DNA of 64,000 nucleotides from Pirellulales bacterium. GTDB lineage: Bacteria; Planctomycetota; Planctomycetia; Pirellulales; Thermoguttaceae. Where the stretch lies: the NCBI GenBank assembly GCA_016935315.1, contig JAFGRD010000081.1, forward strand, positions 62,001-126,000, in the 5' to 3' direction. The notes under the pieces were generated by a model, which saw only the letters and a list, made by a program, of their open reading frames with translations, was not told the DNA's origin and ran no database searches. The stretch's first letter is position 1. Every line of letters starts with the position of its first letter. Below are positions 4,201 to 18,708 of the stretch, piece after piece. The position numbers were made by a program, and so were the translations under genes.

Positions 4201-7200
4201 GCGGGACCACGATCTCCCTCGACTCGGTGTGGACCCGGCCGTCGGCAACAGTAACCGCCTCGACGAAAAAGTTCGGCATATCCCTGGTGACTACGCCGAT
4301 CTCCTCGACCGTGCTCTTGCCGTCAAGCCGGATCACCTTCGGCGGCAGGTACACGCTGTTGGCCGGCCGCGCAAACAGCAGCACGGTCCCCCCGACGCGG
4401 TCCGTGTTGATTTGCAGCTTCACGGACTCGCCGGGGGCGTACTGCCGTTTGTCGGGGACCAGCTCGACGTGGTTGAAGCGATACTGCGAGCCGTCGAACC
4501 CTTCGCCGACGACCGTGAACAGATAGCCTCCCTCAAGGGTGTGCTCCTTCCGGTCGGTCAACTTGTACGAAAGGCGATACTGGCCTGCCTGCGAGGCCGT
4601 CAGTTGCAGCTCCGCCTGCCCCTCCTCGTTGGTCGGAAGCTGCCAGGTTTGCACGGGCGTCTCGACCGGCTTGCCGTCGGCGTAGGAGATCCGCAGCAGC
4701 GTGACCGCGCCTTCGCCCAGCACCGGCTTGCCGTCGAGCGTGCGGGCGGCGTAGCTGGAATGGATCGTGTCGCCGACGCGGTAGTAGCCGCGATCGAGCC
4801 AGGCGTAGACCTGAAACGGCTTGCGGGCCACGAGCACGTCGCCGGCGCCCACGATCGTGCGGCGCGATGCATCGACGACCTCGGCCGTGATCGAGTACTT
4901 GTGGTCCTGGTCGGGGTGAATCGCCTTGGCCAGAGCCGTGTCGATTTCGATCTTGATGGTCCCTTCGGGACCGATGTCGACTTCGCGTTCGGCCACCACC
5001 TCGGGCGGCCGCTGCCCTCGCGGCCACCAGAAGGGAATCGGCCGGCGGCAGCCCCAAGACCGGAAGCCGGGATACCAGTCGTAGTCGTAGCCGAACCACC
5101 AGTAGCCCGGCCCGTAGAACCAGTCCCACGGCCCCGGCGGGTACCACGGCTGGCTGTGCTCGGTGCGCAAGACCTTGTACTTCACCTTGGCTTCAGTCAC
5201 GGGCGAGCCGAAATAGTACTTCGCGGTGATCGTGGCCTCGACCTTCTCGCCGAGCATCACGGGTTCTTTCGGGGCGTCGATGGTGACCTCGAACTCGGGC
5301 TTCTTGTATTCTTCGACCCGGAAATGCCCCCCGCCGAGCCCGCGCGCGCCCTGCTTGACCTGCATCGGGTAGGTCCCCAGCGGCGCGTCGGCCGGCAAGG
5401 CCAACTCGCCCTCCAGGCCGCCGTAGGCGTCGGCCGCCACCGACTTCTGCACGATCCGCTCGCTCTTCGGGTTGTAGATTTCGATCGTGAAGGTCTGCCC
5501 GGCAAACTCGGACGTGTCCGCCATGTCGTACTTCGCATGGCCGACCCAGAACTTGTAGTGCACTGTCTGCTCGGGCCGGTAGACCGGACGGTCGGTGATC
5601 GCGAAGACCTTGGTCTGCTCATATTCCGCGTCGTGGCGCTGCCCGGACCAGACGCGGCTGAATCCCAGATAGGCGAAACGCCCCTGGTCGGTTCGGGCCG
5701 TGATGATCCACTGGTGATCGGGCGGCTGGCTGGCCGCGTCGAGCATCACCTGGCCGTCGGCGTCGGCCCCTTGGGCGAACTGCTTGGTGGAGACCTGGTA
5801 TTTGCGGGTGTCGGTCCGCCGCTGGCGGTAGCCGAAGAACTCGACCTTGGCCTTGGTCACCGGCCGGCCGGTGACCGCGTCGGCCACGTAGTAGTACGTC
5901 TTGCCGTCCAGCGGCTTCTTGACGATCGCCGTGTCGGCAAGCCAGACAATGATCTGGCAGGTGTTGCCGCCGGCCATCTTCGCCGTCAACAGGTAGGCCC
6001 CAGACCGCTGCAACGGCGTGGTGACCGTCACCCGCTTGTCGAAGTGATCGCGGCGGGGATTGACGACCATCTTCCATCGGGCGACCTGCCGGCCAACGTA
6101 CTGCCGCTGGTTCTCGTGGACCAGCCGGTAGCCCAGATTGCCGATGTTCATCCGCGTCCAGTCGAGCTGTTCCGGGTTCGACTTCAGATAGGCCTTCACG
6201 TCGTCCAGCAGCTTCTCGACGTTTACTTCGTGGGCGGTGAACTCGATCAGGTTCCCGTTCCGGAAGCGATACTCGACCGTGGCACCCCGGCCGGCCGGCT
6301 GAGTCATGATCGGCTCGAAGCGACCCCAGTTGCCGACGATCTGCTCCCGCCGCTGTTGCCATTGCGTGTTGTTCTGGTCGTACTGCTTAAGGCACTCCCG
6401 CCAGTGCTCGGCCGCCTTGGGATACTGCCGGCGGTTCTCGAAGACCTGGGCCAGGGCCGCGGTGGCCTCGCCGCCGAAGCCGGTCTTCGGCTCGGCGGCC
6501 ACCTGTTGATAGATCTTGATGAAGTTGAACTCCTCGGGCAGCTTCAGCCGCTTGATGCCGGTGGCCAGCCGGGCGATCGTCTCGTCTTCGCCCAGTGTGT
6601 GCAGGGCGTACGTGCCGCTCTCGTCCTGCTGCGAGTCGTCGGTCTGCGCGGCGCCGAAACGCCAGCCGTGCTGGGCCATGGTCTGCACGCCGAACTGGTT
6701 GTGCAGGAATTCCGCCAGTTGCATCCGCACCGAGTTGGTCCGCGCGGGATCCACCTCCATGGCCTGCATCAGACACCATCGCCAGCGTTGGCCGTCGGTC
6801 TCCGCGGCCTCGAACGTCTTGGGGACCTGGTGAAAGATCGGATTGCCGTCCGGATCGACCGGCGCCCCCGACATCGGCCGATAATACTCGGATTCGCCAA
6901 GGTAGTCCGGCAGCGTGCCCAGGTCGCTGAGATACTGCAACCGCCAGGCTTCGCCGTAGCCGCGGTTGTTCAGCAGCATACGCGACAGCGAGAGGAAGAA
7001 CTCGGCGACCGCCGAACGATCGTCGTCGCCGCGGGCGGCCGGCATCGCTTGGACCATCAACTGCAGCGCCTGGATCCGGTCACGCCCTACGACGTTGACC
7101 ACCTGGCCGCCGCCGCGATGCGGGCCGCGCTGGAACGTGCCGGCGATCATATAGCCGTAGTGGGGCGAGTCCATGCAGTTCTCGGCAGCGGCCCAAAGCA

Positions 7201-7507
7201 GCCGCCAGTTCTGCCGATGCACCTCGATCACGGCCTCGCGGAACGCGTCGATTTCGGCGACCCGATTCAGCCGCTGCAGACACTGCGTCGCCAGATTCAG
7301 GTCCTCGCCGACCCGCAGCGGATCGGCCGCCGGATCCAACGTCAGCTTCCGCAGGCCGTCATAGGCGTCCTTGTAGTTGCCATCCTTCATCGTCTGCTGC
7401 AACTGCTCGCGGGAGGCCGCGCCGTCGGCCGCCTCGGTGGCGGCGAAGGTGGCCGTCGCCAGACCGGCGGCCAGCGCCAGGCAACTCAGGTTCAGCGTGA
7501 TGTTCAT
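1253..7507 (-). CDS. alpha-2-macroglobulin family protein (thioester type)
   Basis: Large secreted protein of 2084 residues, in the range of bacterial alpha-2-macroglobulins, which trap proteases by cleavage of a bait region followed by covalent thioester capture. Visible parts: a signal peptide (residues 1-22, MNITLNLSCLALAAGLATATFA); an N-terminal helical/TPR-like region to about 480; MG domains with the MG2-type ITDRPVYRPEQTVHYKFWVG at about 630; an Ala/Met-rich low-complexity bait-like stretch at about 1240-1300; the A2M core (LWVGALTTEKDG, about 1305); the thioester motif GCTEQ at about 1545; an alpha-toroid that follows it; and a C-terminal receptor-like domain. There is no lipobox, so it is probably soluble in the periplasm or exported. 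Odd point: a Trp/Tyr/Gly-rich insert at about 782-829. The start ATG is preceded by GGAGAA. The usual PBP1C partner gene is not in view; the downstream neighbour is a C69 peptidase. Confidence 0.93.
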   Translation of the reverse strand: MNITLNLSCLALAAGLATATFAATEAADGAASREQLQQTMKDGNYKDAYDGLRKLTLDPAADPLRVGEDLNLATQCLQRLNRVAEIDAFREAVIEVHRQNWRLLWAAAENCMDSPHYGYMIAGTFQRGPHRGGGQVVNVVGRDRIQALQLMVQAMPAARGDDDRSAVAEFFLSLSRMLLNNRGYGEAWRLQYLSDLGTLPDYLGESEYYRPMSGAPVDPDGNPIFHQVPKTFEAAETDGQRWRWCLMQAMEVDPARTNSVRMQLAEFLHNQFGVQTMAQHGWRFGAAQTDDSQQDESGTYALHTLGEDETIARLATGIKRLKLPEEFNFIKIYQQVAAEPKTGFGGEATAALAQVFENRRQYPKAAEHWRECLKQYDQNNTQWQQRREQIVGNWGRFEPIMTQPAGRGATVEYRFRNGNLIEFTAHEVNVEKLLDDVKAYLKSNPEQLDWTRMNIGNLGYRLVHENQRQYVGRQVARWKMVVNPRRDHFDKRVTVTTPLQRSGAYLLTAKMAGGNTCQIIVWLADTAIVKKPLDGKTYYYVADAVTGRPVTKAKVEFFGYRQRRTDTRKYQVSTKQFAQGADADGQVMLDAASQPPDHQWIITARTDQGRFAYLGFSRVWSGQRHDAEYEQTKVFAITDRPVYRPEQTVHYKFWVGHAKYDMADTSEFAGQTFTIEIYNPKSERIVQKSVAADAYGGLEGELALPADAPLGTYPMQVKQGARGLGGGHFRVEEYKKPEFEVTIDAPKEPVMLGEKVEATITAKYYFGSPVTEAKVKYKVLRTEHSQPWYPPGPWDWFYGPGYWWFGYDYDWYPGFRSWGCRRPIPFWWPRGQRPPEVVAEREVDIGPEGTIKIEIDTALAKAIHPDQDHKYSITAEVVDASRRTIVGAGDVLVARKPFQVYAWLDRGYYRVGDTIHSSYAARTLDGKPVLGEGAVTLLRISYADGKPVETPVQTWQLPTNEEGQAELQLTASQAGQYRLSYKLTDRKEHTLEGGYLFTVVGEGFDGSQYRFNHVELVPDKRQYAPGESVKLQINTDRVGGTVLLFARPANSVYLPPKVIRLDGKSTVEEIGVVTRDMPNFFVEAVTVADGRVHTESREIVVPPEKRVLTVEVLPSSETYKPGEKAKVRVKLADLFGEPFVGSTVVAIYDKAVEYISGGSNVPEIKAFFWKWRRHHRPQAETSLDRYCPPLVAKDQPGMGDLGVFGATVAEEMDELGRPESAVGGEPDLQFNRNAVAKAGAGPGFGGGARRGMAIMAEAPAESAAAAPMAAPPGEGLRAKGLAQDAAATGQPAMAEAVVRKEFADTALWVGALTTEKDGTAEVELEMPENLTTWRIKVWAMGHGTKVGEGATDVVTRKDLIVRLQAPRFFVQSDQVVLSAVVHNYLTTKKSVQIALELEGDVLEPLETVAAHLPPAQQGQPAPWVERVTPVEQPAVHAVEIEPGGETRVDWRVRVLDEGEAVVRMKALSDEESDAMQMTFPCYIHGMLKMEARSGALRPDETAGTMRFAVPEQRRPAQSRLEIRYSPTLAGAMVDALPYLANYPYGCTEQTLNRFLPTVITQKILIDMGLDLDEIKQKRANLNAQELGDAGQRAEQWKRYDRNPVFDQAEVRKMVAEGVTRLTEMQLSDGGWGWFSGWGERSDAHTTALVVHGLQIARQNDVALVPGVLERGVAWLQRYQSEQIERLNNALQEPKKTPWKQHADNLDALVYMVLVDAEVASPEMRDFLYRDRTSLAVYSLAAYGLALQKQAENEKLAMVMRNIGQYVQQDDENQTAWLDLPGGCWWCWYGSEFEAHAYFLKLLCRADPKGPLAPRLVKYLLNNRKHASYWNSTRDTAICIEAMADFLRASGEDKPEMTVEIWMDGQMQKAVEITPKSLFRFDDRFVLAGPEVTAGEHRIELRKRGAGPLYYNGYLTNFTLEDFITKAGLEVKVDRKYYRLRRVEATVKDAGSRGQVVDRRVEKYEREELPNLSTLASGDLCEIELEIDSKNDYEYLVFEDMKPAGFEPVDLRSGYTGNALGAYMEFRDNRVVMFVRRLARGKHSVAYRMRAEIPGQFSALPTRAWAMYAPELKANSDEIKLKIED

Positions 7508-7857
7508 TGTATTCTCCGGCTTTGCGTGGGGGGTTAGGCTTCCCTCAGCGTGGCTGGGTGCGGCCCGGTGCTACCGAAGTGGACGGTTTTCCACGCCGCG
7601 AAGTTCCGCCGCCGAGCATAACGCCTCCATGTCGGAGATGCGATCCCTCTTGGGCGCGAAAAGAAGTGCCGCCTACAGTAATCGGGGGTACCTCAACGGG
7701 TCCATCCGTATCCCTTCGATTGCCTTCGGGAATAGAGGCACCCACGCCTCGCCGAATTCTCTTGTGCCACCGATCGCCCTCCGAATAATAATAGAACAGG
7801 AGAGGACAGGAGAGGCCTGCCCGGACGTTGCCCCGCCACCAACCCCCGAGAGCCTTT
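7508..7857. other. intergenic region, divergent A2M / J-like gene
   Basis: No gene is supported here. On the plus strand, TTGTGC at 7762-7767 followed by AATAAT/TAATAA at 7784-7791 (16-18 nt spacing) is a possible promoter for the J-like gene. Purine-rich AGGAGAGG-type sequence lies at about 7800-7815. No clear terminator or structured RNA was seen. Confidence 0.4.
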
Positions 7858-9915
7858 GTGCAAGACCCCTTTGACCCCTATTCCGAGTGGCTCGGGCTTC
7901 CGGACGCCCAACGGCCGCCGGATCATTACAGCCTGCTGGGGATTCCCCTGCTGGAGAGCGATCCGACGGTGATCTCCCACGCGGCCGACGTCCGCATGGC
8001 CCAGGTGCGTAAGATCCGGCCCGGCCAGCATCTGGGCGAATGGGGGCGCCTGCTCGATCAGCTCAACGCAGCCAAGGTCTGCTTGTCCAATCCCGCCAGC
8101 AAGACGGCCTACGACGCCTTTATTCGCAGAGGAGATGGGTCCCAGCCGCCGGCGGCCGGGCCGATCGCCGCCGGCGGCAGCAGCATCCTGGGCGCTTCCG
8201 CCGTCTTGCCGTCGACGACCGTCCGCCCGTCGTTTCCGGCCGAGAGCGACCAGTCGGCGTTGGCAGCCCCGCAACCACAGACCCCGCCACAGACGCCCGA
8301 CGGTCTGCCGGGCATTCCGCCGGCCACACCGGGCCAGCCGCTGCACCCGGCGATCGCCGAGGAACCGGCCGATTCGAACACCTCCGGATACCGCACGATG
8401 GCCGCCATGGTGGCCGTAGCACTGCTGCTGTTGGCGAGCGTCACTGCCTACGTCCTCAGCCGAAACTCGGTTCCGCTGGTGGTGGAGGCACCTGAGTCGA
8501 CATCGGCCGGACCGGACCTCCGGCAAGTATCCCGACCCGCAATCCCGCCTGCGGAAGTGTCCCAGCCAGACGGCATCTCGGATAATCCCCAACGGCCGGG
8601 GCCAAAGCCGCAGACAGACCCCTCGGGGCAAGCAGATCCAGGCCAGGGCGATCCACAGGTGGTTGGTCCGAATTCAGACGGTCTGAGCCCGGTCGAGCCA
8701 GCGCCGGTCGAGCCCGATCAGGCCGTTCCAGACCGGCCGGGTCCGACTCGGCCGGACCCGAGCCAGACGCCGCCCGACCCGGGCGCCAAGCCGGCCACCG
8801 ATCCGCCGATTCCGGATCCGCACGAACCGGCAGTGCCTGCGGATGCGCCCGCCGACCCCCGGAAGCAAGCGGCCCTTGCCAGGGCCGTATCCGACGCCCG
8901 GTTCTCCATGTCGGAGCGGGATCTGCCGGCCGCGCGCCGGCACCTGCAGGCGGCCGAATCGAACGTGCAAACGCCCGCCGACCGGGCTCAGCTCGAACGC
9001 CTGCGGACCATGCTGGCCTATCTGGACGAGTTCTGGAACGGCATGCGCCAAAGCGTGGCCCTGTTGAACGCCGGCCAGGAGCTGGAACTGAAGACCACGC
9101 GGGTGGTGGTGGTCGAGGCCAGCCGCGACCAGTTGACCGTGCGAGCGGTCGGCGAGAATCGCAGTTGGCCGATCGAGTTCATTCCGACGTCGTTGGTCCT
9201 GGCGATCGCAGGCACATCGTTTCCCGACGACGCCACGTCGAAGACCCACATCGGGACGTTCCTGGCGGTCGATCCTAAGGGCGATCGGGCCCGGGCGCGC
9301 CAGCTATGGCAAGAGGCCACCCAGGAGGGGATGGACATCGGCTCGCTGATGCCCGAGTTGGACGTCGCATGGCCGCCTGGCTCGACCAATAGCGCGGTCC
9401 CCACCAAGGCGCCGCCCGATCAGGCCGAACTGCAGCAGGCCGAACAGTCGTTCCGTGATCGGTATGCGAGTCGATTTGCCGCGGCCACCAGCGTCGCGAA
9501 GAAGCTCGCCCTGGCCCGGGAGTTGCTCGCCCAGGCAGACAGGATCAACGACGATCCGACCGCGCAACTGGTGATGTTGCGCGAAGCCCGCGACCTGGCC
9601 GTGGCCGCGGGCAAGCCGGCTTGGGCGTGCGAGATCGTCGATCGGATGGCCGAGTTGCACACGATTGATGTGGCGACGATGAAGGCCTTGGTCTTGGGGG
9701 AGGTCCAGAAGAACGCCCGTGGGCTTAGCAGCCATCGGGAGATTGCCACCGGCGCCTTGGAGCTGATCGAGCAGGCGGTCAAGGCGAACCGCCTGGACGA
9801 GGCGGGCCGTTTAGCGGCGCTGGCGCTGGACGCGGCGCAGAACTCTCGCAGCCCCACGCTGATACAGCAGGCGATTGCCGCCGGCCAGCGGGTTGAGGCC
9901 TTGCGGAAGCAGTAG
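7858..9915 (+). CDS. degenerate-J-domain membrane protein (paralogue 1)
   Basis: Planctomycete-type protein of unknown function, 685 residues from the GTG at 7858; a TTG at 7828 would add 10 residues. GTG is preferred because the conserved block FDPYSEWLGLP begins four residues later, exactly as in the paralogue at 16267, and a GAGAG sits five bases upstream. Residues 4-90 resemble a J domain (DHYSLLGIPLLESDP ... LNAAKVCLSNPASKTAYDAF), but the HPD tripeptide that stimulates Hsp70 is absent. A single membrane helix follows (about 181-200, MAAMVAVALLLLASVTAYVL), then a long Pro/Asp-rich linker (about 205-345), then an alpha-helical region with LREARDLAVAAGKP-type repeats. The topology suggests a cytoplasmic J-like head and a periplasmic tail. 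It stands alone between divergent A2M and the mutasome. Its role is unknown. Confidence 0.75.
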   Translation: MQDPFDPYSEWLGLPDAQRPPDHYSLLGIPLLESDPTVISHAADVRMAQVRKIRPGQHLGEWGRLLDQLNAAKVCLSNPASKTAYDAFIRRGDGSQPPAAGPIAAGGSSILGASAVLPSTTVRPSFPAESDQSALAAPQPQTPPQTPDGLPGIPPATPGQPLHPAIAEEPADSNTSGYRTMAAMVAVALLLLASVTAYVLSRNSVPLVVEAPESTSAGPDLRQVSRPAIPPAEVSQPDGISDNPQRPGPKPQTDPSGQADPGQGDPQVVGPNSDGLSPVEPAPVEPDQAVPDRPGPTRPDPSQTPPDPGAKPATDPPIPDPHEPAVPADAPADPRKQAALARAVSDARFSMSERDLPAARRHLQAAESNVQTPADRAQLERLRTMLAYLDEFWNGMRQSVALLNAGQELELKTTRVVVVEASRDQLTVRAVGENRSWPIEFIPTSLVLAIAGTSFPDDATSKTHIGTFLAVDPKGDRARARQLWQEATQEGMDIGSLMPELDVAWPPGSTNSAVPTKAPPDQAELQQAEQSFRDRYASRFAAATSVAKKLALARELLAQADRINDDPTAQLVMLREARDLAVAAGKPAWACEIVDRMAELHTIDVATMKALVLGEVQKNARGLSSHREIATGALELIEQAVKANRLDEAGRLAALALDAAQNSRSPTLIQQAIAAGQRVEALRKQ

Positions 9916-10160
9916 CTGCGACTGGTGGTTTCGGCTGCAATGCCCCGCGGGCCATGGTTTTGCGGCAAGGCCGCTGCGCGCCTTTCCTCTTTCATTTTCA
10001 TATAGGCCTCTGTGCCGTTTTCTCAGAAAGTGCAATTTCAGTTGTACCCAACTTGTTTTTCGATAGGCCCTTCTCGTTTCCTTTTCTCCCACCCATCTCC
10101 CCCATCCTTTCTGCTGCAGATGAATTCTGGACTTTTTGTCCCGATCCGCCGATACCCCAA
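9916..10160. other. pyrimidine-rich intergenic region before imuA
   Basis: Noticeably richer in A+T and pyrimidines than its surroundings, with a run of about 50 nt that is nearly all C and T at 10068-10117. No coding frame or clear terminator stem was recognised. The longer reading frame that enters imuA from here lacks protein-like composition and is not counted as coding. Confidence 0.4.
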
Positions 10161-10203
10161 TTGACGCCGATACGATACAGAAGTACAGTATTTATTGGAG
10201 GAG
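10161..10203 (+). promoter_or_regulatory. promoter of imuA with candidate damage-response operator
   Basis: TTGACG (10161-10166) and TACAGT (10184-10189) are separated by exactly 17 nt, a good sigma-70 type promoter. Two TACAG copies (10176-10180 and 10184-10188) with an 8-nt period overlap the -10 element and could bind a repressor such as LexA. The Shine-Dalgarno GGAGGAG follows at 10197-10203, so the untranslated leader would be very short. The promoter is seen in the sequence; the operator role is inference, since no LexA site is established here. Confidence 0.5.
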
Positions 10204-10211
10204 CGCCCCCA

Positions 10212-10940
10212 ATGACAACCCGGCAGCAAAACCCCGTGCAAATCGAAACGCTCCGCCGGCAGATTTCGCGGCTGGAAGGCGGGCAACGCCCCCGCGACAC
10301 CGCACCGGTCGCCACCGGCTGCGGCCCGTTGGATCGCCTCTTGCCCGAGCGGGGATTGCGCCGAGGGACTTTGGTCGAATGGCTGGCCGCCGGCGCGGGA
10401 AGCGGGGCCGAAACGCTGGCCTTGCAGGCTGCCCGACAGGCGTGCCGCGACGGCGGGACGCTGATCGTCTTGGACCGCCGCCGCGAGTTCTATCCGCCGG
10501 CGGCTGCCCGACTGGGAATCGAGCTGGAAAGGCTCATGCTGGTCTACGCCACCGGCGAGGCCGACAACGCCTGGGCGTTGGACCAGGCGCTGCGCTGCCC
10601 GGGTGTGGCCGCGATCGTGGCATGGCCCGAGCAACTCGACGGGCGGACCTTCCGGCGGCTGCAATTGGCCGCCGAACAGGGTCGTGGCCTGGGGCTGTTG
10701 ATCCGGCCGCCGGCGGCGCGTTCCGAACCCTCCTGGGCCGACGTGCGGCTACTGGTCGAGCCGCTGCCGGCCGAACCGTCGCAAGCCGAGAAACGGCGAT
10801 TGAGGATCTGTCTGCTTCGCTGCCGCGGTGGAACCGACGGCCGCAGCATCGATGTGGAAATCGACGATGAAACGCATCTTGTGCATCCGGCTTCCCGATT
10901 GGCCGCTGCAACGGCTCACCATCGCGCGGCCGGAGCTTAA
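10212..10940 (+). CDS. imuA: ImuA, RecA-like mutasome component
   Basis: RecA-fold accessory protein of translesion synthesis (also called ImuA' or SulA-like), which acts with ImuB and DnaE2 in damage-induced mutagenesis. The protein has 242 residues from the ATG at 10212, preceded by GGAGGAG. The N-terminal GCGPLDRLLPERGLRRGTLVEW block is the typical ImuA/RecA-fold start, but the P-loop region reads AGAGSGAETLA and lacks the GKT/S lysine, consistent with loss of canonical ATPase function in the family. LIVLDRRREFYPPAA and IVAWPEQLDGRTFRRLQLA match later RecA-core strands. Its end overlaps the start of imuB by 74 nt, indicating translational coupling. Family and operon context agree. Confidence 0.88.
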   Translation: MTTRQQNPVQIETLRRQISRLEGGQRPRDTAPVATGCGPLDRLLPERGLRRGTLVEWLAAGAGSGAETLALQAARQACRDGGTLIVLDRRREFYPPAAARLGIELERLMLVYATGEADNAWALDQALRCPGVAAIVAWPEQLDGRTFRRLQLAAEQGRGLGLLIRPPAARSEPSWADVRLLVEPLPAEPSQAEKRRLRICLLRCRGGTDGRSIDVEIDDETHLVHPASRLAAATAHHRAAGA

Positions 10941-12312
10941 GCAGTTGCCGGTGGCTATTCTCCCCGACGACCCGGCGGCCGACCGCGAGGCGTTGGAAAC
11001 CTTGGCCACCGAGTGTGGACGGTTCAGCCCCAGCGTGGCGGTGGAGGAATCCACGATGCCCGACAGCCTCTTGCTGGACGTCACCGGCCTGGCCGATCTG
11101 TTCGGCGGCGAGGTCTCGTTGGCCGCGGCGGTCGCCGACCACTTCCAGCAGCGCCACCTGGCCGTCCACGTGGCCGTCGCCGACACGCTCGGCGCCGCCT
11201 GGGCGGTGACCCATTTTTATCGGGTTCCCCAAGGGCCCGAGTCGGCCGGAACCGGTTTCCCGTGGGTCGTTCCGCCCGGCGGGTCTCTGGCGGCGTTGCG
11301 ACCGTTGCCGATCGAGGCCTTGCGGCTGGCCGACGAGGCGGTCGACTTGCTGCACCAGTTGGGCATCCGGCGGATCGAGCAGTTGGAGGCGTTGCCGCGC
11401 CGTGAGCTGGCCTCGCGATTCGGGCCGCCATTGTTGCGGCGCTGGGACCAGGCCGTCGGGCGGGCGGCCGAACCGCTGCCGACTCATCGGCCGGCGCCGC
11501 AGTTCCGGGCCGACTGGTCGCCGCCGCAGCCGACCGCCCGGCGCGACACGATCGAAGCGGCCCTGGAGCAACTGATTGGGCAGGTGGCGGCCGAGTTGGC
11601 CTTGGAAGACCGCGGGGCCATGCGATTGGACTGCCGGCTGGATTGCACCGCGACCGACTACGCCGGTATGGTGCCGGTGCCGGTTTGCGTGGGCCTGTTC
11701 GAGCCGACGGCTTCGGCCCGGCATTTGTTCGAGCTGGCCCAGGTGCAGTTGCAGCGGCTGCGGCTTCCCGGACCGCTGGCGGCCCTGTGCGTGACCGCGG
11801 CTGCCACGGCCCCACTGATCCATCGGCAGCAAGAGATGCCCTTTGGCGACGGCGGCGATTCACCCCGGCAACACGCGCGGCAACTGGCTGCCCTGGTCGA
11901 TCGGCTTTGCAGCCGGCTGGGGCGTCGGGCGGTGGTTCGCGCGCGGCTGGTTGCCGACGCCCAGCCGGAGTTGGCCTGGCGTCGCGATCCGCTGTTGCAG
12001 GACTCGCGTCGCCGCGGCATGCGAAAAGCGACGCCCGCCGACTTGCCGCCGCGTCCGTTGCGGCTGTTGCCGCGCCCGCTGGCCTTGGCCGCCGCGTCGC
12101 TGGTGCCGGACGGTCCGCCGCTGCAATTTTGCCTGCGCCGCCAGCCGTGTCGGGTGGCACACACCTGGGGCCCGGAACGCATTGAAACCGGCTGGTGGCG
12201 CGGCCGCACGGTCGGTCGCGACTATTATCGCGTGGAAACCACCGACGGCCGCCGCTTCTGGCTCTTTCGCCGGCTGCGCGATGGGCGGTGGTTTGCGCAT
12301 GGGGTGTTTTGA
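10867..12312 (+). CDS. imuB: ImuB, inactive Y-family polymerase-like mutasome hub
   Basis: Y-family DNA-polymerase homologue that recruits DnaE2 to the beta clamp rather than synthesising DNA. The protein has 481 residues from the ATG at 10867 (MKRILCIRLPDWPLQRL), inside imuA; a further in-frame ATG at 10852 is possible. The palm region lacks the usual DCDxFFAxVE acidic motif, as expected for ImuB. The family-typical C-terminal series PRPLRLLPRPLAL, then GPERIETGWWRG, then RDYYRVETTDGRRFWLFRRL and GRWFAHGVF is present. The last roughly 50 residues resemble the separate DUF6504 protein encoded downstream. No clear clamp-binding pentapeptide was identified by eye. The 241-nt gap after the stop is unusual for this operon and holds an SDR-like remnant. 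Confidence 0.88.
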   Translation: MKRILCIRLPDWPLQRLTIARPELKQLPVAILPDDPAADREALETLATECGRFSPSVAVEESTMPDSLLLDVTGLADLFGGEVSLAAAVADHFQQRHLAVHVAVADTLGAAWAVTHFYRVPQGPESAGTGFPWVVPPGGSLAALRPLPIEALRLADEAVDLLHQLGIRRIEQLEALPRRELASRFGPPLLRRWDQAVGRAAEPLPTHRPAPQFRADWSPPQPTARRDTIEAALEQLIGQVAAELALEDRGAMRLDCRLDCTATDYAGMVPVPVCVGLFEPTASARHLFELAQVQLQRLRLPGPLAALCVTAAATAPLIHRQQEMPFGDGGDSPRQHARQLAALVDRLCSRLGRRAVVRARLVADAQPELAWRRDPLLQDSRRRGMRKATPADLPPRPLRLLPRPLALAAASLVPDGPPLQFCLRRQPCRVAHTWGPERIETGWWRGRTVGRDYYRVETTDGRRFWLFRRLRDGRWFAHGVF

Positions 12313-12395
12313 TGAGAGGTTGAGGGTTCAGGGATTCGCCCTGTCACTTTCCGGCCAGAAACCACACAAGACGTAGTCCGACGGGAGCGAAAGAC

Positions 12396-12482
12396 ATGAC
12401 ACGCCAAGGCAGAGTGGCCCTCGTGACCGGTGCCGCCGGCAACTTCATTTCGGGAGCCGTTCTTCCGTACGTGTATCGCTGA
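12396..12482 (+). pseudogene. 28-codon remnant resembling an SDR N-terminus
   Basis: ATG at 12396 with GGGAG upstream encodes MTRQGRVALVTGAAGNF, followed by 11 more residues and a TGA at 12480-12482. The first half is a textbook start of a short-chain dehydrogenase (K/RVALVTGAAG nucleotide-binding loop), but the frame stops at 28 codons and no continuation is visible. It is read as a truncated gene fragment stranded inside the mutasome operon. A translated leader peptide is an alternative. Confidence 0.45.
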
Positions 12483-12553
12483 GCGAGACAGGCGCGCCCG
12501 TGAGTGCAACGGCTGATCACGGGCCGGATGATCACTATGGGAGTTACTAATCC

Positions 12554-12877
12554 ATGAACACATTTGTCGGCGAATCGATTACGCCCCTGTTTGACGAGGG
12601 AACCGGCACGTCGATTGCCCTTGGCGAACCCATCGTCCCGTCAGGGTTCATTTGGCGGGAGAAGGAATATCGGATCCAGTCCGTTCTGGAAACGTGGAAA
12701 GAGTCAGGGCCGTGCAAGTCCGGCAGTCCGGAGCGATACCTGCGAAAACACTGGTATCGAGTCCGGATGACTGACGGCACGGAAATGGAGATCTATTTCG
12801 AACGACAGGCCAGGTCGCCGAAGCAACGCAAGAGAAGATGGTGGCTGTTTAGTGTTTCCGACGAGAAGCAGGTCTGA
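12554..12877 (+). CDS. DUF6504-like small protein of the mutasome operon
   Basis: 107-residue protein resembling the DUF6504 family, small proteins often encoded next to error-prone polymerase genes. Key features: FIWREKEYRIQSVLETWKE, then KHWYRVRMTDGTEMEIYFER, then a basic stretch ending KRRWWLFSV. The order W..R.Y.V, W.E, YRVR..DG, W.L matches the last part of ImuB. The start ATG at 12554 has GGGAG about 10 nt upstream. The 3' end overlaps the GTG start of dnaE2 by 26 nt, so translation is probably coupled. Base composition is visibly less GC-rich than imuB or dnaE2, which with the adjacent SDR remnant hints at rearrangement. The molecular role is unknown; a mutasome accessory is inferred. 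Confidence 0.75.
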   Translation: MNTFVGESITPLFDEGTGTSIALGEPIVPSGFIWREKEYRIQSVLETWKESGPCKSGSPERYLRKHWYRVRMTDGTEMEIYFERQARSPKQRKRRWWLFSVSDEKQV

Positions 12878-15800
12878 CAAGCGTCGCCCCTACGCCGAGT
12901 TGCACGCCAAAACGAACTTCTCCTTTCTCGAAGGGGCCTCGCACCCGGACGAATTGGTCCGCCGGGCGGCCGAGTTGGAGTATGCGGCCCTGGCGGTGAC
13001 CGACCGCCACAGCCTGGCCGGCGTGGTCCGCGCGCACGGAGCGGCCAAGGACCTCGGGCTGAAGTTGCTCATCGGGGCCGAAGTCACGCCCGAGGACGCC
13101 CCGCCGCTGGTGCTGCTGGCCACCGATCGGGCCGCTTACGGGCGGTTGGCGCGGTTGATCACCCTCGGGCGGCGCCGAGTGGAAAAGGGCCACTGCCGGT
13201 TGGCGTTCGAGGACGTGGTCGAACATGCGGCCGGGCTGATCGCCCTGGTGAAGCCGCCACGTGGAACTGCCGACGCACGGCCGGTCGACGACGCTCTGCA
13301 AACCGTCGGCCCCTACCGCGCGGTCTTCGGCGATCGCGGCTATCTGCTGGCCGAATTGCACCACGGCCCGGACGACCGGGGACAACTGCGGCGGTGGCAA
13401 CAACTGGCCCGGCGGGCCGGCATGCCGCTGGTGGCCGCCGGCGACGTGCACTATCACGTGTCCGGGCGGCGCCCGCTTGGCGACGTGCTGACGGCCGTCC
13501 GCCACGGCACGACGGTGGCCGCGGCGGGCGACCATCTCTTCCCCAACGCCCAACGCCACTTGCAATCGCCCCGGACCATGGCCGCACGGTTCGCCGACGC
13601 GCCCGAGGCGATCGGCCGCACGGTGGAGATCGCCGAGCGTTGCACGTTTTCGCTCGACGAGCTGCGTTACGAATATCCCGAGGAGCTGGCCCCGCCGGGC
13701 CAAACGCCGATCGAGCACCTTACGCGGCTCGCCTGGGCCGGGGCGCGAAAACGCTATCCGCGCGGCGTGCCCGAAAAGGTGCGGCGGCTGATCGAGCACG
13801 AGCTGCGCCTGATCGAAGAGCTGCACTACGAGGCCTACTTTCTCACCGTCTGGGACTTGGTCCGCTTCGCCCGGGGCCGCGGCATTCTCTGCCAGGGCCG
13901 CGGCTCGGCGGCCAACTCGGCCGTCTGCTACTGCCTGGGCGTCACCTCGGTCGATCCCCAGCGGATGGACGTGCTCTTCGAGCGGTTCGTCAGCCGCGAG
14001 CGGAACGAGGCCCCCGACATCGACGTGGATTTCGAGCACCAGCGGCGTGAGGAGGTGCTTCAATACCTCTACGACAAATACGGTCGCCAGCGAGCCGGGA
14101 TGACCGCCGAGGTGATCACCTATCGGCCGCGTTCGGCGGTTCGCGACGTGGGCAAGGCCTTGGGGCTTTCGCTCGATCGGGTCGACGCCTTGGCCAGGCG
14201 GATCGAGCACTTCCACGAAGAGCCCGAGCTGGACCGGCGATGTCGCGAGGCGGGCATCAATCCCGAGACCGATCCGGGGCGGCAACTGGTCGAGCTGGTC
14301 GGCCAATTGGTCGGCTTCCCGCGCCACCTTTCGCAGCACACCGGCGGCATGGTGATGACTCAGGGCCCTTTGTGCGAGCTGGTGCCCATCGAGAACGCCG
14401 CCATGCCCGATCGGACCGTGATCCAGTGGAACAAAGACGATTTGGACGAGCTGGGCATCCTCAAGGTCGATTGCCTGGCCCTGGGTATGCTCTCGGCCAT
14501 CCGCCGCTGTTTTCAACTGGTGCGGAAACACGATGGCCGGGAGCTCACGCTGGCCAACATCCCGGAAGGCGACCGGCGGGTCTACGAGATGATCTGCCGC
14601 GCCGATACGATGGGCGTGTTCCAGATCGAGAGCCGGGCGCAGATGAGCATGCTTCCCCGGCTGCGGCCGCAATGCTTCTACGACCTGGTGATCGAGGTGG
14701 CCATCGTGCGGCCCGGACCGATTCAGGGAAACATGGTCCATCCCTACCTGCGCCGCCGCAACGGCCAGGAAACGGTGGCCTATCCCAACGAGGCGATCCG
14801 CCAGGTGCTCGGCAAGACGCTGGGCGTGCCGCTGTTCCAGGAACAGGCGATGCGGCTGGCGGTGGTGGCCGCCGACTTCACGCCCGGCGAGGCCGATCAG
14901 CTACGCCGGGCCATGGGGGCCTGGCGGCGGCCGGGGCTGATCGACCGGTTCCGTAAAAAGCTGATCGAGGGCATGCGAACCAACGGATTCTCCGACGAGT
15001 ATGCCGAGGCCGTGTTTACACAGATCCGCGGCTTCGGCGATTACGGGTTCCCCGAGTCGCACGCCGCCAGCTTCGCGCTGCTGGTCTACGTTTCGGCCTG
15101 GCTGAAGTGCCACTATCCGGCCGCCTTTACCTGCGCGTTGTTGAATAGCCAGCCCATGGGCTTCTACGCCCCTGCCCAGTTGGTCCGCGACGCCCGGCAG
15201 CACGGCGTCGAGGTGTTGCCCTGCGACGTGAATTTCAGCGATTGCGATTCGACGCTGGAAGCGGTCGCCGCGCCCGCGGGACCGCAAAGGACCGTTGCGC
15301 CTGCAAAGCCGCAGGCAGACTCGCGGTTTGCCCTGCGCCTGGGATGGAAGATGCTGCATGGCCTCGCTTCAGCGCATGCCGAGCGGATCGTGGATGCCCG
15401 GGGCGATCGGCCGTTTCGCTCGCTGGACGATTTCTCCCGTCGCAGCGGATTGAGCCGGGCGGTCCTCGCGCGTCTGGCCAAGGCCGGCGCGTTCGGCTCG
15501 CTGAAACTGAACCGCCGCGAAGCACTCTGGCACACCCTGGACCAGGACCAGCGGGAGCTCCCCCTGTTCGACCAGGCCGAACATGCCGAAAAAGAAGACG
15601 CGTTCGGCCGGGAAGTGCCTCTGCCCGAGATGTCGGAGGCCGAAGAGGTATGGGCCGACTACCGAACCACCGGGCTGTCGCTTCGGGCCCATCCGCTGGA
15701 GTTCTTGCGCGTCGAGTTGAGCAAGAAAGACGTGGTGCCGGCCGGGGAACTTCAGAATCTGCCCGACGGAAAACCGGTCCGCGTGGCCGGCATCGTGTTG

Positions 15801-16070
15801 GTCCGCCAACGGCCCGGCACGGCCAAGGGAATCACGTTCGTCACGCTGGAGGACGAGACGGGCATCGCCAATCTGATCATCCGCCCCGCGGTCTGGAAGC
15901 GTTACCGCCCGGCGGCCTTGGGGGCAACGTTGCTGTTGGCCCAAGGTCGGCTGCAGCGTCAAGGAGCGATCCTCCACGTGCTGACCACGAAGCTGGAGAA
16001 TCTCTCGGAGTCTCTAGGCGAGCCGGAGTCTCTAGGCGAGATGGAATCGCAGTCGCGGGATTTCTGCTAA
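12852..16070 (+). CDS. dnaE2: error-prone DNA polymerase III alpha (DnaE2/ImuC)
   Basis: C-family DNA polymerase for lesion bypass, the catalytic member of the ImuA-ImuB-DnaE2 mutasome. 1072 residues, normal for DnaE2. It starts at GTG 12852, since the conserved YAELHAKTNFSFLEGASHP block of the PHP domain begins 13 residues later. Polymerase motifs: CQGRGSAANSAVCY at about 348; the catalytic PDIDVDFE at about 387-394; SQHTGGMVMTQGPL; GYVSAWLK-type fingers near 750; and a C-terminal OB fold (about 970-1050, VRVAGIVLVRQRPGTAKG). The initial PHP domain is retained. The last codons contain an exact 17-bp repeat with an 18-bp period, giving ESLGEPESLGEME. No gene follows on the same transcript until a new promoter at 16196. 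Confidence 0.95.
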   Translation: MFPTRSRSDKRRPYAELHAKTNFSFLEGASHPDELVRRAAELEYAALAVTDRHSLAGVVRAHGAAKDLGLKLLIGAEVTPEDAPPLVLLATDRAAYGRLARLITLGRRRVEKGHCRLAFEDVVEHAAGLIALVKPPRGTADARPVDDALQTVGPYRAVFGDRGYLLAELHHGPDDRGQLRRWQQLARRAGMPLVAAGDVHYHVSGRRPLGDVLTAVRHGTTVAAAGDHLFPNAQRHLQSPRTMAARFADAPEAIGRTVEIAERCTFSLDELRYEYPEELAPPGQTPIEHLTRLAWAGARKRYPRGVPEKVRRLIEHELRLIEELHYEAYFLTVWDLVRFARGRGILCQGRGSAANSAVCYCLGVTSVDPQRMDVLFERFVSRERNEAPDIDVDFEHQRREEVLQYLYDKYGRQRAGMTAEVITYRPRSAVRDVGKALGLSLDRVDALARRIEHFHEEPELDRRCREAGINPETDPGRQLVELVGQLVGFPRHLSQHTGGMVMTQGPLCELVPIENAAMPDRTVIQWNKDDLDELGILKVDCLALGMLSAIRRCFQLVRKHDGRELTLANIPEGDRRVYEMICRADTMGVFQIESRAQMSMLPRLRPQCFYDLVIEVAIVRPGPIQGNMVHPYLRRRNGQETVAYPNEAIRQVLGKTLGVPLFQEQAMRLAVVAADFTPGEADQLRRAMGAWRRPGLIDRFRKKLIEGMRTNGFSDEYAEAVFTQIRGFGDYGFPESHAASFALLVYVSAWLKCHYPAAFTCALLNSQPMGFYAPAQLVRDARQHGVEVLPCDVNFSDCDSTLEAVAAPAGPQRTVAPAKPQADSRFALRLGWKMLHGLASAHAERIVDARGDRPFRSLDDFSRRSGLSRAVLARLAKAGAFGSLKLNRREALWHTLDQDQRELPLFDQAEHAEKEDAFGREVPLPEMSEAEEVWADYRTTGLSLRAHPLEFLRVELSKKDVVPAGELQNLPDGKPVRVAGIVLVRQRPGTAKGITFVTLEDETGIANLIIRPAVWKRYRPAALGATLLLAQGRLQRQGAILHVLTTKLENLSESLGEPESLGEMESQSRDFC
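16006..16040 (+). repeat. two-copy 18-bp tandem repeat in dnaE2 3' end
   Basis: CGGAGTCTCTAGGCGAG occurs at 16006-16022 and 16024-16040, separated by one base. It is in frame and duplicates the peptide ESLGEP/ESLGEM just before the dnaE2 stop. Confidence 0.85.
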
Positions 16071-16195
16071 GCGACCGACGTGCCCAGCACACCGCGTCGC
16101 CACAGACTCATGCCCGCAACCCGATGGGGGTGCATTGAGCGGCAGGACCAGACCACCTGGATTCGTGCCGAGAGGTCCGACATTCGGGCGATTCA

Positions 16196-16224
16196 TTGTC
16201 AAGTCGGCGGGGCCAAGACATAAT
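16196..16224 (+). promoter_or_regulatory. promoter of J-like paralogue 2
   Basis: TTGTCA (16196-16201) and CATAAT (16219-16224) with a 17-nt spacer. It lies inside the longest reading frame and about 40 nt before the ATG at 16267, which supports that ATG as the real start. Confidence 0.55.
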
Positions 16225-16266
16225 GCTGTGAGGGCTTATCGTTTCTGTGATCGTCGACCCACTGCG

Positions 16267-18708
16267 ATGGCGAACTTCGATCCATATCGAATATGGCTGG
16301 GGATTCCGCCGGAGGAACAGCCGCCGAACCACTACCGGCTGTTGGGGATCGGACTGTTCGAATCCGACCCGGACGTGGTTTCCAATGCGGCCGACCGGCA
16401 AATGGTCCACGTCAGGACGTTCCAATCCGGCAAGCACTCCGAGCTATCGCAACAAATCCTCAACGAACTATCGGCTGCCCGAGTCTGCCTGCTTGACCCC
16501 CGGAAGCGGGCGTCTTATAACGCCCAGTTGAGGCAGGACCTGGCCGCTTCGCAACCGGCGTCTCCCCCGCCGCCCGTATCCGCGCCGCCTCCTCAACCGC
16601 CAGGCTCCCCCCCCTCTGTAGCCACCCATTCGCAGGGAGGCGCGCCTCTGGTGCAAACCAGAGGACCATCGGCGAGCACCCGCAGTCCTACCGCTTATGC
16701 CCGTCGACGGAAGAAATCGTCGTGGCGAGGGCCGCTTGTCGCTGTCATTGTGGCCATCGGCGCGTTGGCTCTGGTAGTGTGGGCCCTGAGCAATACGAAC
16801 CGGGAATCGACGCCGAAGCCCTCGGGCGAGAACTCCCACGGCATCGGGGCGTCGCTTGAGGGGACGCTGGCCGGAAACGGCGGCCTGCAAAACGGCAGGC
16901 CCACCCGGCCGCAGCGGCTGGACCCCAGCGGCCCTGGTCGCGGTCCCGCGTTGCGCGACCTCGGGTCCCCGTTTGGCGACCGGCCACGCCGCTTCGACGC
17001 CTTCAAGCCCCCGGAAGACCAGCGCCGGCCGCCCGTTTCCTCGGCACAAGACGCGACGCCGGCTGGCTCGACGTCCGGGACTGTCCAGAATTCCCCCGGG
17101 GATACTGCCGGCAGCCAGCCAGCAGTCGCCGGCCCCCTCGAAGTTCCCGTCGAGGAAGCGATCCGGCAGGCCACCGAGGCCATCCGGCGGGACACACAAT
17201 TCCAATCCGACTTTGCGGCGACCGCCCGGCCCGCAAAGCAGGCGTTGGTACAGAGGCTGCTGGACGAACAGGGCGATCCGGCCCGGCGCTATGCGGCGCT
17301 GCGGTTGGCTCAGCAGGAAGCCGTCGCCCTGGGCGAGATCGACTCGGCCTTCGCGGCGGTAGACGCATTGGGCGAGCAGTTTCAGATCGACAACGTGCTC
17401 GTCGAAAAGACAAACACTTTGAAGGCTGCTCTGAGCTCGACGACGAATTCGGGGAAGGGGCACCTGCTTCCCCGTATCCTGGCACTTCAGTGCGATGCCC
17501 TTGCGGCCGGTGATGTTCCCACCAGCGACCAACTGACGCTCCTGGCGCTCCAGGCGGCCAAGGAGTTCCCCGAAGGGACTCTCCGCCGAACGATTCTTAT
17601 GGATTCGCTGAAGGATCATAACGGGAGAGTCGCGGCCTACAAGAAAGACCCGAAGGCTGCCTCGCCCGAAGCCGTCGAAAGGTTGAAGGCCCTGAGTTCG
17701 TCCCCTCTGTTTGGCGGCAGCGCGGAGAGCGAGGCTGCGATCGATCGGGCATTGGACTGGCTGGCCCGACATCAAAACCCAGAAGGCAGTTGGACGTTCC
17801 GCCAAAGGCGGACCGGCTCGCTGCCATCGCCCCAGTGCTTGTCGGAGTGCGCACCGCTGGGCAATCTGGGCCCGAATGCGGGGACGGCCTTGGCGATCCT
17901 GCCTTTCTTGGGCAGGGGGATTGGACCCGGGCGCGGAGAGTACGGAGAGAAAGTCGAGAAAGGGCTCACCTTTCTGCTCCTGCGGATAAGCAGTCTCGGC
18001 AATCTGCACGAGAATCTGATGCCGCAACTGCCCGCGCACGCCTTGGGGACGATCGCCCTGTGCGAAGCCTGCACGGCCGGCTCCTCGCGAGCTCAGCGAC
18101 AGATCCGGCAGGCCGCGCAAGTCGCCGTGCAGGTCGTCGTCAACACCCAGAACACCGACGGGGGTTGGGCGGCCGCCCCGGCGAGACCGAGGCAGCCCGC
18201 GGGCGGAAGCGACGTCTGCACGACCGGCTGGAACATCGCTGCCCTGAGGGCGGCCAAGTGGGCGGGCCTCAGTTTCGACGAGAAGCTGGTCTTCTCCAAG
18301 GCCCGCGAGTACCTCGAAAAACAGGTCGCCTCGACCGACCCAAGCGGCGCCGCCGTCGTCATGCTCTCGCGGATGTACTGCGGTCTGCCGCGCGACGACC
18401 AGTCGTTGAGCGATTATCTGGCGTCGTTGAGCAGCCCAACCGTGGCGCCGAACAGGCTGTTCCCCGTCTATGGCATCTACCACAACTGCCAGGTGGTGCG
18501 TCACGACGGCGGGGCTGCCTGGGATCGCTGGAACCCCGACCTCCGCGACGCGCTGGTACAAACCCAGGAGCAGACGGGACACGCAGCCGGCAGTTGGTTC
18601 TTCCGCAGCAACGAGCCCATGACCCTCGGCGGCGGGCGTCTGTTCTGCACCGTGATGGCCACGTTGATGCTGGAAGTCTACTATCGGCATCCGCCGTTGT
18701 ACGAGTAG
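16267..18708 (+). CDS. degenerate-J-domain membrane protein with cyclase-like C-terminus (paralogue 2)
   Basis: 813 residues from the ATG at 16267 (MANFDPYRIWLGIPP), placed just after a good promoter. Residues 1-90 share the J-like block with the gene at 7858 (NHYRLLGIGLFESDPDVVSN ... LNELSAARVCLLDPRKRASYN), again without HPD. A membrane helix lies at about 155-177 (LVAVIVAIGALALVVWALS), then a low-complexity Gly/Pro/Arg linker to about 290, then an alpha-helical region with RYAALRLAQQEAVALGEID, the same type as in paralogue 1. From about 487 a new domain begins with AIDRALDWLARHQNPEGSW, GTALAILPFLG and NTQNTDGGWA, resembling the prenyltransferase/squalene-oxidase alpha/alpha-barrel repeats. 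Catalytic DxDD-type motifs were not seen, so binding rather than cyclisation is likely. TrmL follows 23 nt downstream. Confidence 0.78.
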   Translation: MANFDPYRIWLGIPPEEQPPNHYRLLGIGLFESDPDVVSNAADRQMVHVRTFQSGKHSELSQQILNELSAARVCLLDPRKRASYNAQLRQDLAASQPASPPPPVSAPPPQPPGSPPSVATHSQGGAPLVQTRGPSASTRSPTAYARRRKKSSWRGPLVAVIVAIGALALVVWALSNTNRESTPKPSGENSHGIGASLEGTLAGNGGLQNGRPTRPQRLDPSGPGRGPALRDLGSPFGDRPRRFDAFKPPEDQRRPPVSSAQDATPAGSTSGTVQNSPGDTAGSQPAVAGPLEVPVEEAIRQATEAIRRDTQFQSDFAATARPAKQALVQRLLDEQGDPARRYAALRLAQQEAVALGEIDSAFAAVDALGEQFQIDNVLVEKTNTLKAALSSTTNSGKGHLLPRILALQCDALAAGDVPTSDQLTLLALQAAKEFPEGTLRRTILMDSLKDHNGRVAAYKKDPKAASPEAVERLKALSSSPLFGGSAESEAAIDRALDWLARHQNPEGSWTFRQRRTGSLPSPQCLSECAPLGNLGPNAGTALAILPFLGRGIGPGRGEYGEKVEKGLTFLLLRISSLGNLHENLMPQLPAHALGTIALCEACTAGSSRAQRQIRQAAQVAVQVVVNTQNTDGGWAAAPARPRQPAGGSDVCTTGWNIAALRAAKWAGLSFDEKLVFSKAREYLEKQVASTDPSGAAVVMLSRMYCGLPRDDQSLSDYLASLSSPTVAPNRLFPVYGIYHNCQVVRHDGGAAWDRWNPDLRDALVQTQEQTGHAAGSWFFRSNEPMTLGGGRLFCTVMATLMLEVYYRHPPLYE

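Follow-up and report, generated by a model that had tools for sequence, protein, structure and literature searches.

In the accessible parts of their paper, Aravind et al. (2013; PMC3765255) relate the C-terminus of ImuB to small standalone proteins and name the domain ImuB-C. Operons in which a standalone ImuB-C accompanies DnaE2 and a Y-family protein, whether active or inactive, are described in the available sections of Timinskas and Venclovas (2019; PMC6511836) and of a 2026 survey (PMC12926913); in those of the former, imuA is reported as not found in standalone ImuB-C operons or genomes, and the groups assembled in 2019 may have excluded the DUF6504 family. For Deinococcus, the accessible text of another report gives the order lexA-imuY-imuB-C-dnaE2 (PMC8072749). 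The 2026 survey, as far as its text was available, models ImuB-C as a β-barrel that contacts the PHP domain of DnaE2 and ImuA. In M. smegmatis, ImuA′ binding is weakened but not lost when ImuB-C is removed, according to the accessible portion of that study (PMC11791113).

Here we analyzed a 64,000-nucleotide stretch of DNA (the window) in which imuA, imuB and dnaE2 follow one another in cassette order on one strand. A DUF6504 gene is flanked by imuB and dnaE2, which is the SOS-operon context of a standalone ImuB-C. The features of the locus are:

9954-10940, plus strand: imuA frame, encoding a RecA-like ImuA; true start uncertain, 10209-10937 scanned
10867-12312, plus strand: imuB, 481 aa, a Y-family polymerase homolog with its own ImuB-C tail
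12076-12309, plus strand: ImuB-C domain forming the ImuB tail, about residues 404-481, with the best-matching core from residue 418
12313-12553, plus strand: spacer between imuB and the DUF6504 gene, 241 nt, GC 59.3%, containing a 28-codon frame
12554-12877, plus strand: DUF6504 gene, 107 aa, best read as a standalone ImuB-C protein
12852-16070, plus strand: dnaE2, error-prone DNA polymerase, with a 26-nt overlap with the DUF6504 gene

The product of the imuA frame matches the ImuA model NF033429 (E 2.7e-34) with 118.7 bits, below the cut-off of 150, and RecA in the Pfam scan (E 5.7e-6). In the same scan the imuB product gives weak IMS and IMS_C matches; its tail is canonical. PF20114 covers residues 2-103 of the 107 in the DUF6504 protein (profile positions 3-103 of 103; E 4.4e-27; 94.8 bits against a curated cut-off of 24.2), and the dnaE2 product scores 1467.8 bits with NF004225. 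Of the possible ATG, GTG and TTG starts in the dnaE2 frame, the earliest is the GTG at 12852, within the DUF6504 gene, and the second is a TTG that already belongs to the conserved YAELHAK stretch; in two relatives (L152 and L153) an ATG stands immediately 5′ of the conserved FAEIHA/FAEIYA of DnaE2. Because the sole start ahead of the conserved part lies within the DUF6504 gene, the window DnaE2 seems to depend on it, and translation of the two genes may be coupled.

Around these genes, the one LexA-box pattern scanned across the window, GTTCN4-7GAAC, does not occur near the operon; its two matches, at 3809 and 41497, are fewer than expected by chance, and LexA boxes vary between phyla. Rfam gave no match within 9500-16500. 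The 28-codon frame of the spacer (12397-12480) starts MTRQGRVALVTGAAGN, which we take to resemble the start of a short-chain dehydrogenase; a Pfam scan of this frame gave zero matches at E ≤ 1, and the compared loci gave no telling match to it. By eye, the large plus-strand ORFs that flank the cassette, 7828-9915 and 16135-18708, have similar N-termini of the PPDHYRLLGI type (PPDHYSLLGIPLLESDP and PPNHYRLLGIGLFESDP).

The preliminary description had set the end of the ImuB encoded by 10867-12312 (GWWRG, RDYYRVETTDGRRFWLF and GRWFAHGVF) beside the ORF at 12554-12877 (YRIQSVLETWKE, KHWYRVRMTDGTEMEIYF and RRWWLFSV), and all of these motifs are found where it placed them. The resemblance is real, but the pairing is partly different, with YRIQSVLETWKE aligning to CRVAHTWGPERI instead of GWWRG. 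The match also takes in an earlier block (VPSGFIWRE against PPLQFCLRR). Taken alone, the window pair is marginal: BLASTP gives 20.4 bits (E 0.021 for a single comparison) and hhalign 20.9% for the two single sequences. Against a profile of the other family, hhalign gives 14.3% for the single window DUF6504 (tail profile) and 86.9% for the single window ImuB tail (DUF6504 profile); a four-sequence DUF6504 profile against the single window tail gives 9.4%, in register. As sole proof of kinship, we rejected the pairwise evidence (0.021, 20.9% and 9.4%) as too weak.

For the comparison of families we drew on whole genomes of the same phylum and on named contigs, which supplied 31 DUF6504-like standalones and, after reduction of 79 ImuB frames, 48 distinct ImuB sequences. 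The strict DUF6504 profile and the column table were built from 24 of the 31 standalones and exclude the divergent L100, L101, L103, L105, L107, L108 and L109. Profile against profile, the strict DUF6504 set aligns with the 48 ImuB tails at 97.3% probability (P 2e-11, score 64.0, 68 columns), which bears out the proposed resemblance; a first profile that kept the seven divergent standalones gave 97.6%. All 26 control segments of ImuB that start before column 312 stay at or below 0.6% (score ≤ 13.4), while across six segments that reach into the tail the probability climbs from 76.8 to 97.5%. The reversed tail gives 0.7%, and 291 column shuffles reach a top score of 24.6 and a top probability of 29.1%.

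Six ImuB tails (G058, G533, G465, G564, G393 and G590) score above the cut-off of the Pfam DUF6504 model itself, with positions checked in the ImuB frames, and 5 of its 31 matches in the phylum search fall in ImuB frames (G058, G087, G111, G183 and G277). Run against the 48 ImuBs, the DUF6504 profile places its match in the window protein (E 3.9e-4, with Z set to 1000) at residues 414-477, which are 419-482 of the 486-residue stretch searched. The match is uneven: 2 of 46 rows peak outside the tail, the weakest tails reach only E about 1, and some ImuB tails, as well as the window DUF6504, score poorly alone. Columns common to both families include P29/P418, F32/F421, W34 (L423 in the window ImuB), G75/G461 and W96/W475. 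They thus include the conserved tryptophan near the C-terminus that characterizes the ImuB-C superfamily, W96 being present in 23/23 strict standalones with a letter there and the W475 column in 90% of the 48 tails; K49/R438 stands at 58% in standalones and 85% in tails, and R64 is found in 96% of standalones and 44% of tails, with G in the window ImuB. DUF6504 and the ImuB tail are, with near certainty, one homologous domain. The window DUF6504 displays the profile homology to the ImuB C-terminal domain that defines the ImuB-C superfamily, and as a family DUF6504 is best taken to be standalone ImuB-C.

Structure prediction agrees with this relationship. The AlphaFold2 model of the DUF6504 protein, made with three relatives (pLDDT 77.2, pTM 0.69), has six predicted strands at 2-12, 31-34, 37-52, 63-72, 77-84 and 95-102. 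The last 80 residues of ImuB were folded alone to avoid bias; their model is weaker (pLDDT 62.4) and shows strands at 18-21, 27-33, 44-47, 52-56, 62-67 and 74-78. The two predictions, made separately, agree in strand number, six, and in strand order. Every DUF6504 strand but the first corresponds to a tail strand at the aligned position; for the first, the tail model, with pLDDT below 50 in the equivalent stretch, shows no counterpart. Foldseek found no match to the DUF6504 model in the PDB at E ≤ 0.001, and the best VIA-align 2 hit, to engineered cystatin-like Affimers, has Z 6.0, below the 8 needed for more than a common arrangement; neither result shows a new fold. The outcome of this PDB comparison agrees with a remark in the accessible text of the 2026 survey that ImuB-C lacks close PDB relatives (PMC12926913). 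Searching solved structures brought up no ImuB-like chain (E ≤ 0.01) with the window ImuB as query and none that was convincing with DUF6504. Profiles, the Pfam model on ImuB tails and the matching predicted strand order together uphold the view that the same domain occurs twice in one operon.

The preliminary description had also suggested that the second copy was duplicated and freed as a separate subunit. Neighboring genes that share a domain, with motifs in equal order, are what one would expect if the ImuB tail of this operon had been copied. However, a tree of the 79 domains (82 columns, many unresolved forks, the seven divergent standalones included) splits the 31 standalones from the 48 tails by one branch (SH-aLRT 95). 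It places the window DUF6504 within a 24-row standalone clade (SH-aLRT 99), on the opposite side of that branch from its neighbor. With the tail of its own ImuB the window DUF6504 shares only 18% identity (78 columns), but with L002, a standalone from elsewhere, as much as 61% (82 columns), a large gap despite the short tree. A local duplication is therefore highly improbable, and identity and tree together led us to reject it.

The nearest named relatives of the DUF6504 protein belong to planctomycete MAGs and lie at unrelated places. Between imuB and dnaE2, tblastn with the window DUF6504 (E ≤ 1e-3, a threshold that misses divergent copies) found it in 0 of 27 other loci (23 plus L152-L155), which form a non-random set chosen for a found ImuB. 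Most of these gaps are too short for the domain; length leaves room for it at L136 (423 nt), L141 (3067 nt) and L155, where the gap, counted from the last ImuB match, is about 6.8 kb. From the imuB stop to the conserved DnaE2 start there are 8-203 nt in 20/23 measured loci, compared with 578 in the window. The nearest relatives, G575 and G576, encode a DnaE2 about 70% identical to that of the window and carry a standalone DUF6504 elsewhere in the genome. The window gene is GC-poor (55.5% against 66.3%; 0.3 percentile of equal-sized pieces of the window). Low GC alone is no proof of foreign origin, since two relatives have a GC-poor imuB-dnaE2 gap too (0.529 and 0.567), but combined with the absence from the relatives' site it suggests that an older standalone gene was inserted. 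The copy is thus very probably an inserted standalone gene rather than a local duplicate, and insertion would be the actual event.

Could the gene instead be the remnant of an older arrangement, with the order of a split system? Its place equals that in the Deinococcus cassette (PMC8072749), and the split systems have been proposed, in the available parts of two papers, to be older than ImuB (PMC6511836, PMC12926913). Against such retention stand the missing DUF6504 at every one of the compared junctions, the unrelated places of its nearest relatives and the low GC of the gene, which make this explanation very unlikely.

Other material occupies the same junction in relatives; in the nearest ones, G575 and G576, it is an IS200-like transposase remnant. 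The imuB-dnaE2 gap of L153 (about 5208-5633) contains a remnant of an IS200-like transposase (Y1_Tnp, E 9.7e-16, over a 92-residue stretch), and that of L152 holds a shorter IS200-like piece, seen by eye. In genome G489 (L134:3448-4086, plus strand) a SRAP gene lies between imuB and dnaE2 on the strand opposite to them (PF02586, E 9.1e-19, for a 140-residue stretch of a 212-aa frame). SRAP is the other SOS accessory domain in the accessible text of Aravind et al. (2013; PMC3765255), and L134 puts one at this junction.

Standalone DUF6504 is scattered, occurring in 26/294 phylum, 3/297 class and 5/119 family genomes; the phylum count is the 31 matches minus the five ImuB tails and includes the weak G188, G177 and G253. 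The window ImuB matches 64/294 phylum genomes at E ≤ 1e-8, at least five of these matches, near 1e-9, being frames of about 400 aa that have no tail match and look like DinB. ImuA was called by its position beside ImuB because the family search mostly matches RecA-like genes (279/294 phylum genomes at E ≤ 1e-4, 1 over the cut-off). A plasmid search gave no hit for DUF6504 (E ≤ 0.01); for ImuB it gave 657 records, which, among the matches listed, are named 'DNA polymerase Y family protein' or unnamed. DnaE2 exceeds its cut-off in only 3/23 scored standalone-bearing genomes, and the other five carriers in two of the samples (G000, which is the window genome, G027, G052, G162 and G220) have a DnaE2 by tblastn or, for the window, NF004225. 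Standalone ImuB-C can coexist with imuA, as it does in five genomes: in one operon in the window and at separate places in G220, G162, G575 and G576.

Near 33 standalone loci, several of which end at contig ends, there was no ImuA or ImuB match and a DnaE-like match only at L107. Twenty neighbors scanned at 19 loci include two LexA genes, both beside divergent members (L107 and L108), one PolB-type exonuclease (L125) and one restriction-enzyme gene (L090); the rest are mixed or unmatched. Unlike the window, the other strict DUF6504 loci showed no adjoining lexA, Y-family polymerase or dnaE2. At L107 (about 2244-7797) and L108 (about 3184-4081) the divergent ImuB-C-like genes lie downstream of lexA. 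At L107 they are followed by a DnaE-like polymerase of 994 aa that shares about 31% identity with the window DnaE2, an arrangement that resembles published split systems. In G500, of the same family as the window genome, the PolB-type 3′-5′ exonuclease gene (L125:5653-6729; PF10108, E 2.7e-54) lies upstream of a standalone DUF6504 on the same strand.

In the best explanation overall, to which we assign a probability of roughly 0.6, an ordinary imuA-imuB-dnaE2 cassette received an old standalone gene between imuB and dnaE2, and this gene has come to overlap the dnaE2 start. The operon would then make ImuB-C both tethered, as the ImuB tail, and free, the free copy being produced together with DnaE2 and offering a surface of the same kind as the tail. 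It might sit at the PHP site of DnaE2 or on the ImuA/RecA side of the complex, where it could be an additional subunit for docking and stabilization or a competitor that tunes assembly. The chance that the free copy, through whatever binding it may have, acts on the window mutasome is slightly below even. The other idea of the preliminary description, that the mutasome holds one binding domain in two copies, is possible. An unlikely, more specific form is a mutasome with two ImuB-C domains in which the free copy, produced in step with DnaE2 by way of the gene overlap, competes with or doubles the tail at the PHP domain of DnaE2, setting the amount of active mutagenic polymerase. If true, this would be an added regulatory or stoichiometric subunit absent from the 11 module types in the accessible part of the 2026 survey.

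Elsewhere DUF6504 shows no tie to DnaE2, so its usual partner may be something else, and this together with the co-occurrence of Y-family genes makes a passenger role or service to another polymerase a serious rival to a part in the window mutasome. The imuB-dnaE2 junction looks prone to insertions. A gene dropped there, with no mutasome role and only an incidental overlap with dnaE2, would fit the transposase remnants (L153 and the shorter L152) and the SRAP gene (L134) in relatives' junctions, as well as the mixed genes that DUF6504 adjoins elsewhere. Such a passenger is plausible, at clearly less than even odds, given that the frame is intact and retains all 38 positions that are invariant across it and the three closest named relatives (as it must, since these four define the set). 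Moreover, dnaE2 has no other ATG, GTG or TTG before its conserved part, which argues that the junction is built into the operon. We consider it rather unlikely that the free copy works for RecA or for a different Y-family polymerase instead of DnaE2, as in operons of Pol IV with standalone ImuB-C. A Y-family match occurs in 25/26 standalone-bearing and 204/268 other phylum genomes (Fisher p 0.014, ignoring kinship), the window genome has a second Y-family gene elsewhere (G000:C152), and in the accessible text of Aravind et al. (2013; PMC3765255) standalone ImuB-C most often accompanies DinB. The association is weak, however, Y-family genes are common, and none was found among the 20 scanned neighbors.

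Since the kinship of ImuB-C was published in 2013, the preliminary description rediscovered a known relation. The standalones described there (GSU0042 and kin) are, in the available text, small all-β proteins with a conserved late tryptophan like the window copy, and their relation to the ImuB tail is of comparable strength (HMM E about 1e-4 to 1e-5, against 1e-4 to 1e-6 here with the Pfam model per genome). The name DUF6504 is absent from the literature searched on ImuB-C, and profile statistics with controls now give this family a meaning, as standalone ImuB-C. The contexts listed by Aravind et al. in the accessible part of the paper are DinB, DnaE2, UmuC, Ku-ligase, SplB and SRAP, whereas the window copy shares an operon with imuA and a tailed imuB.

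Compared with the ImuA-ImuB-DnaE2 cassette, the window has all three genes in the same order on the same strand and adds the DUF6504 gene that is missing in the 27 other loci. With the Deinococcus cassette it shares the order of Y-family homolog, free ImuB-C and dnaE2, but in the accessible description ImuY has no ImuB-C tail and there is no imuA, while the window has imuA and a tailed ImuB. A free ImuB-C likewise adjoins dnaE2 in the DnaE2X-iPolY-ImuB-C-RecA systems (PMC12926913), whose genomes, in the part of the survey available, lack imuA and imuB, both of which are present here. The window therefore falls outside the DnaE2X/ImuY split type, which is marked by the lack of imuA and of a tailed ImuB. 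No operon that joins imuA and an imuB with intact tail to a free ImuB-C is described in the accessible portions of these papers. The window operon offers a natural test of whether ImuB-C acts in trans on DnaE2 and is, in comparison with the described systems, a new arrangement of known parts.
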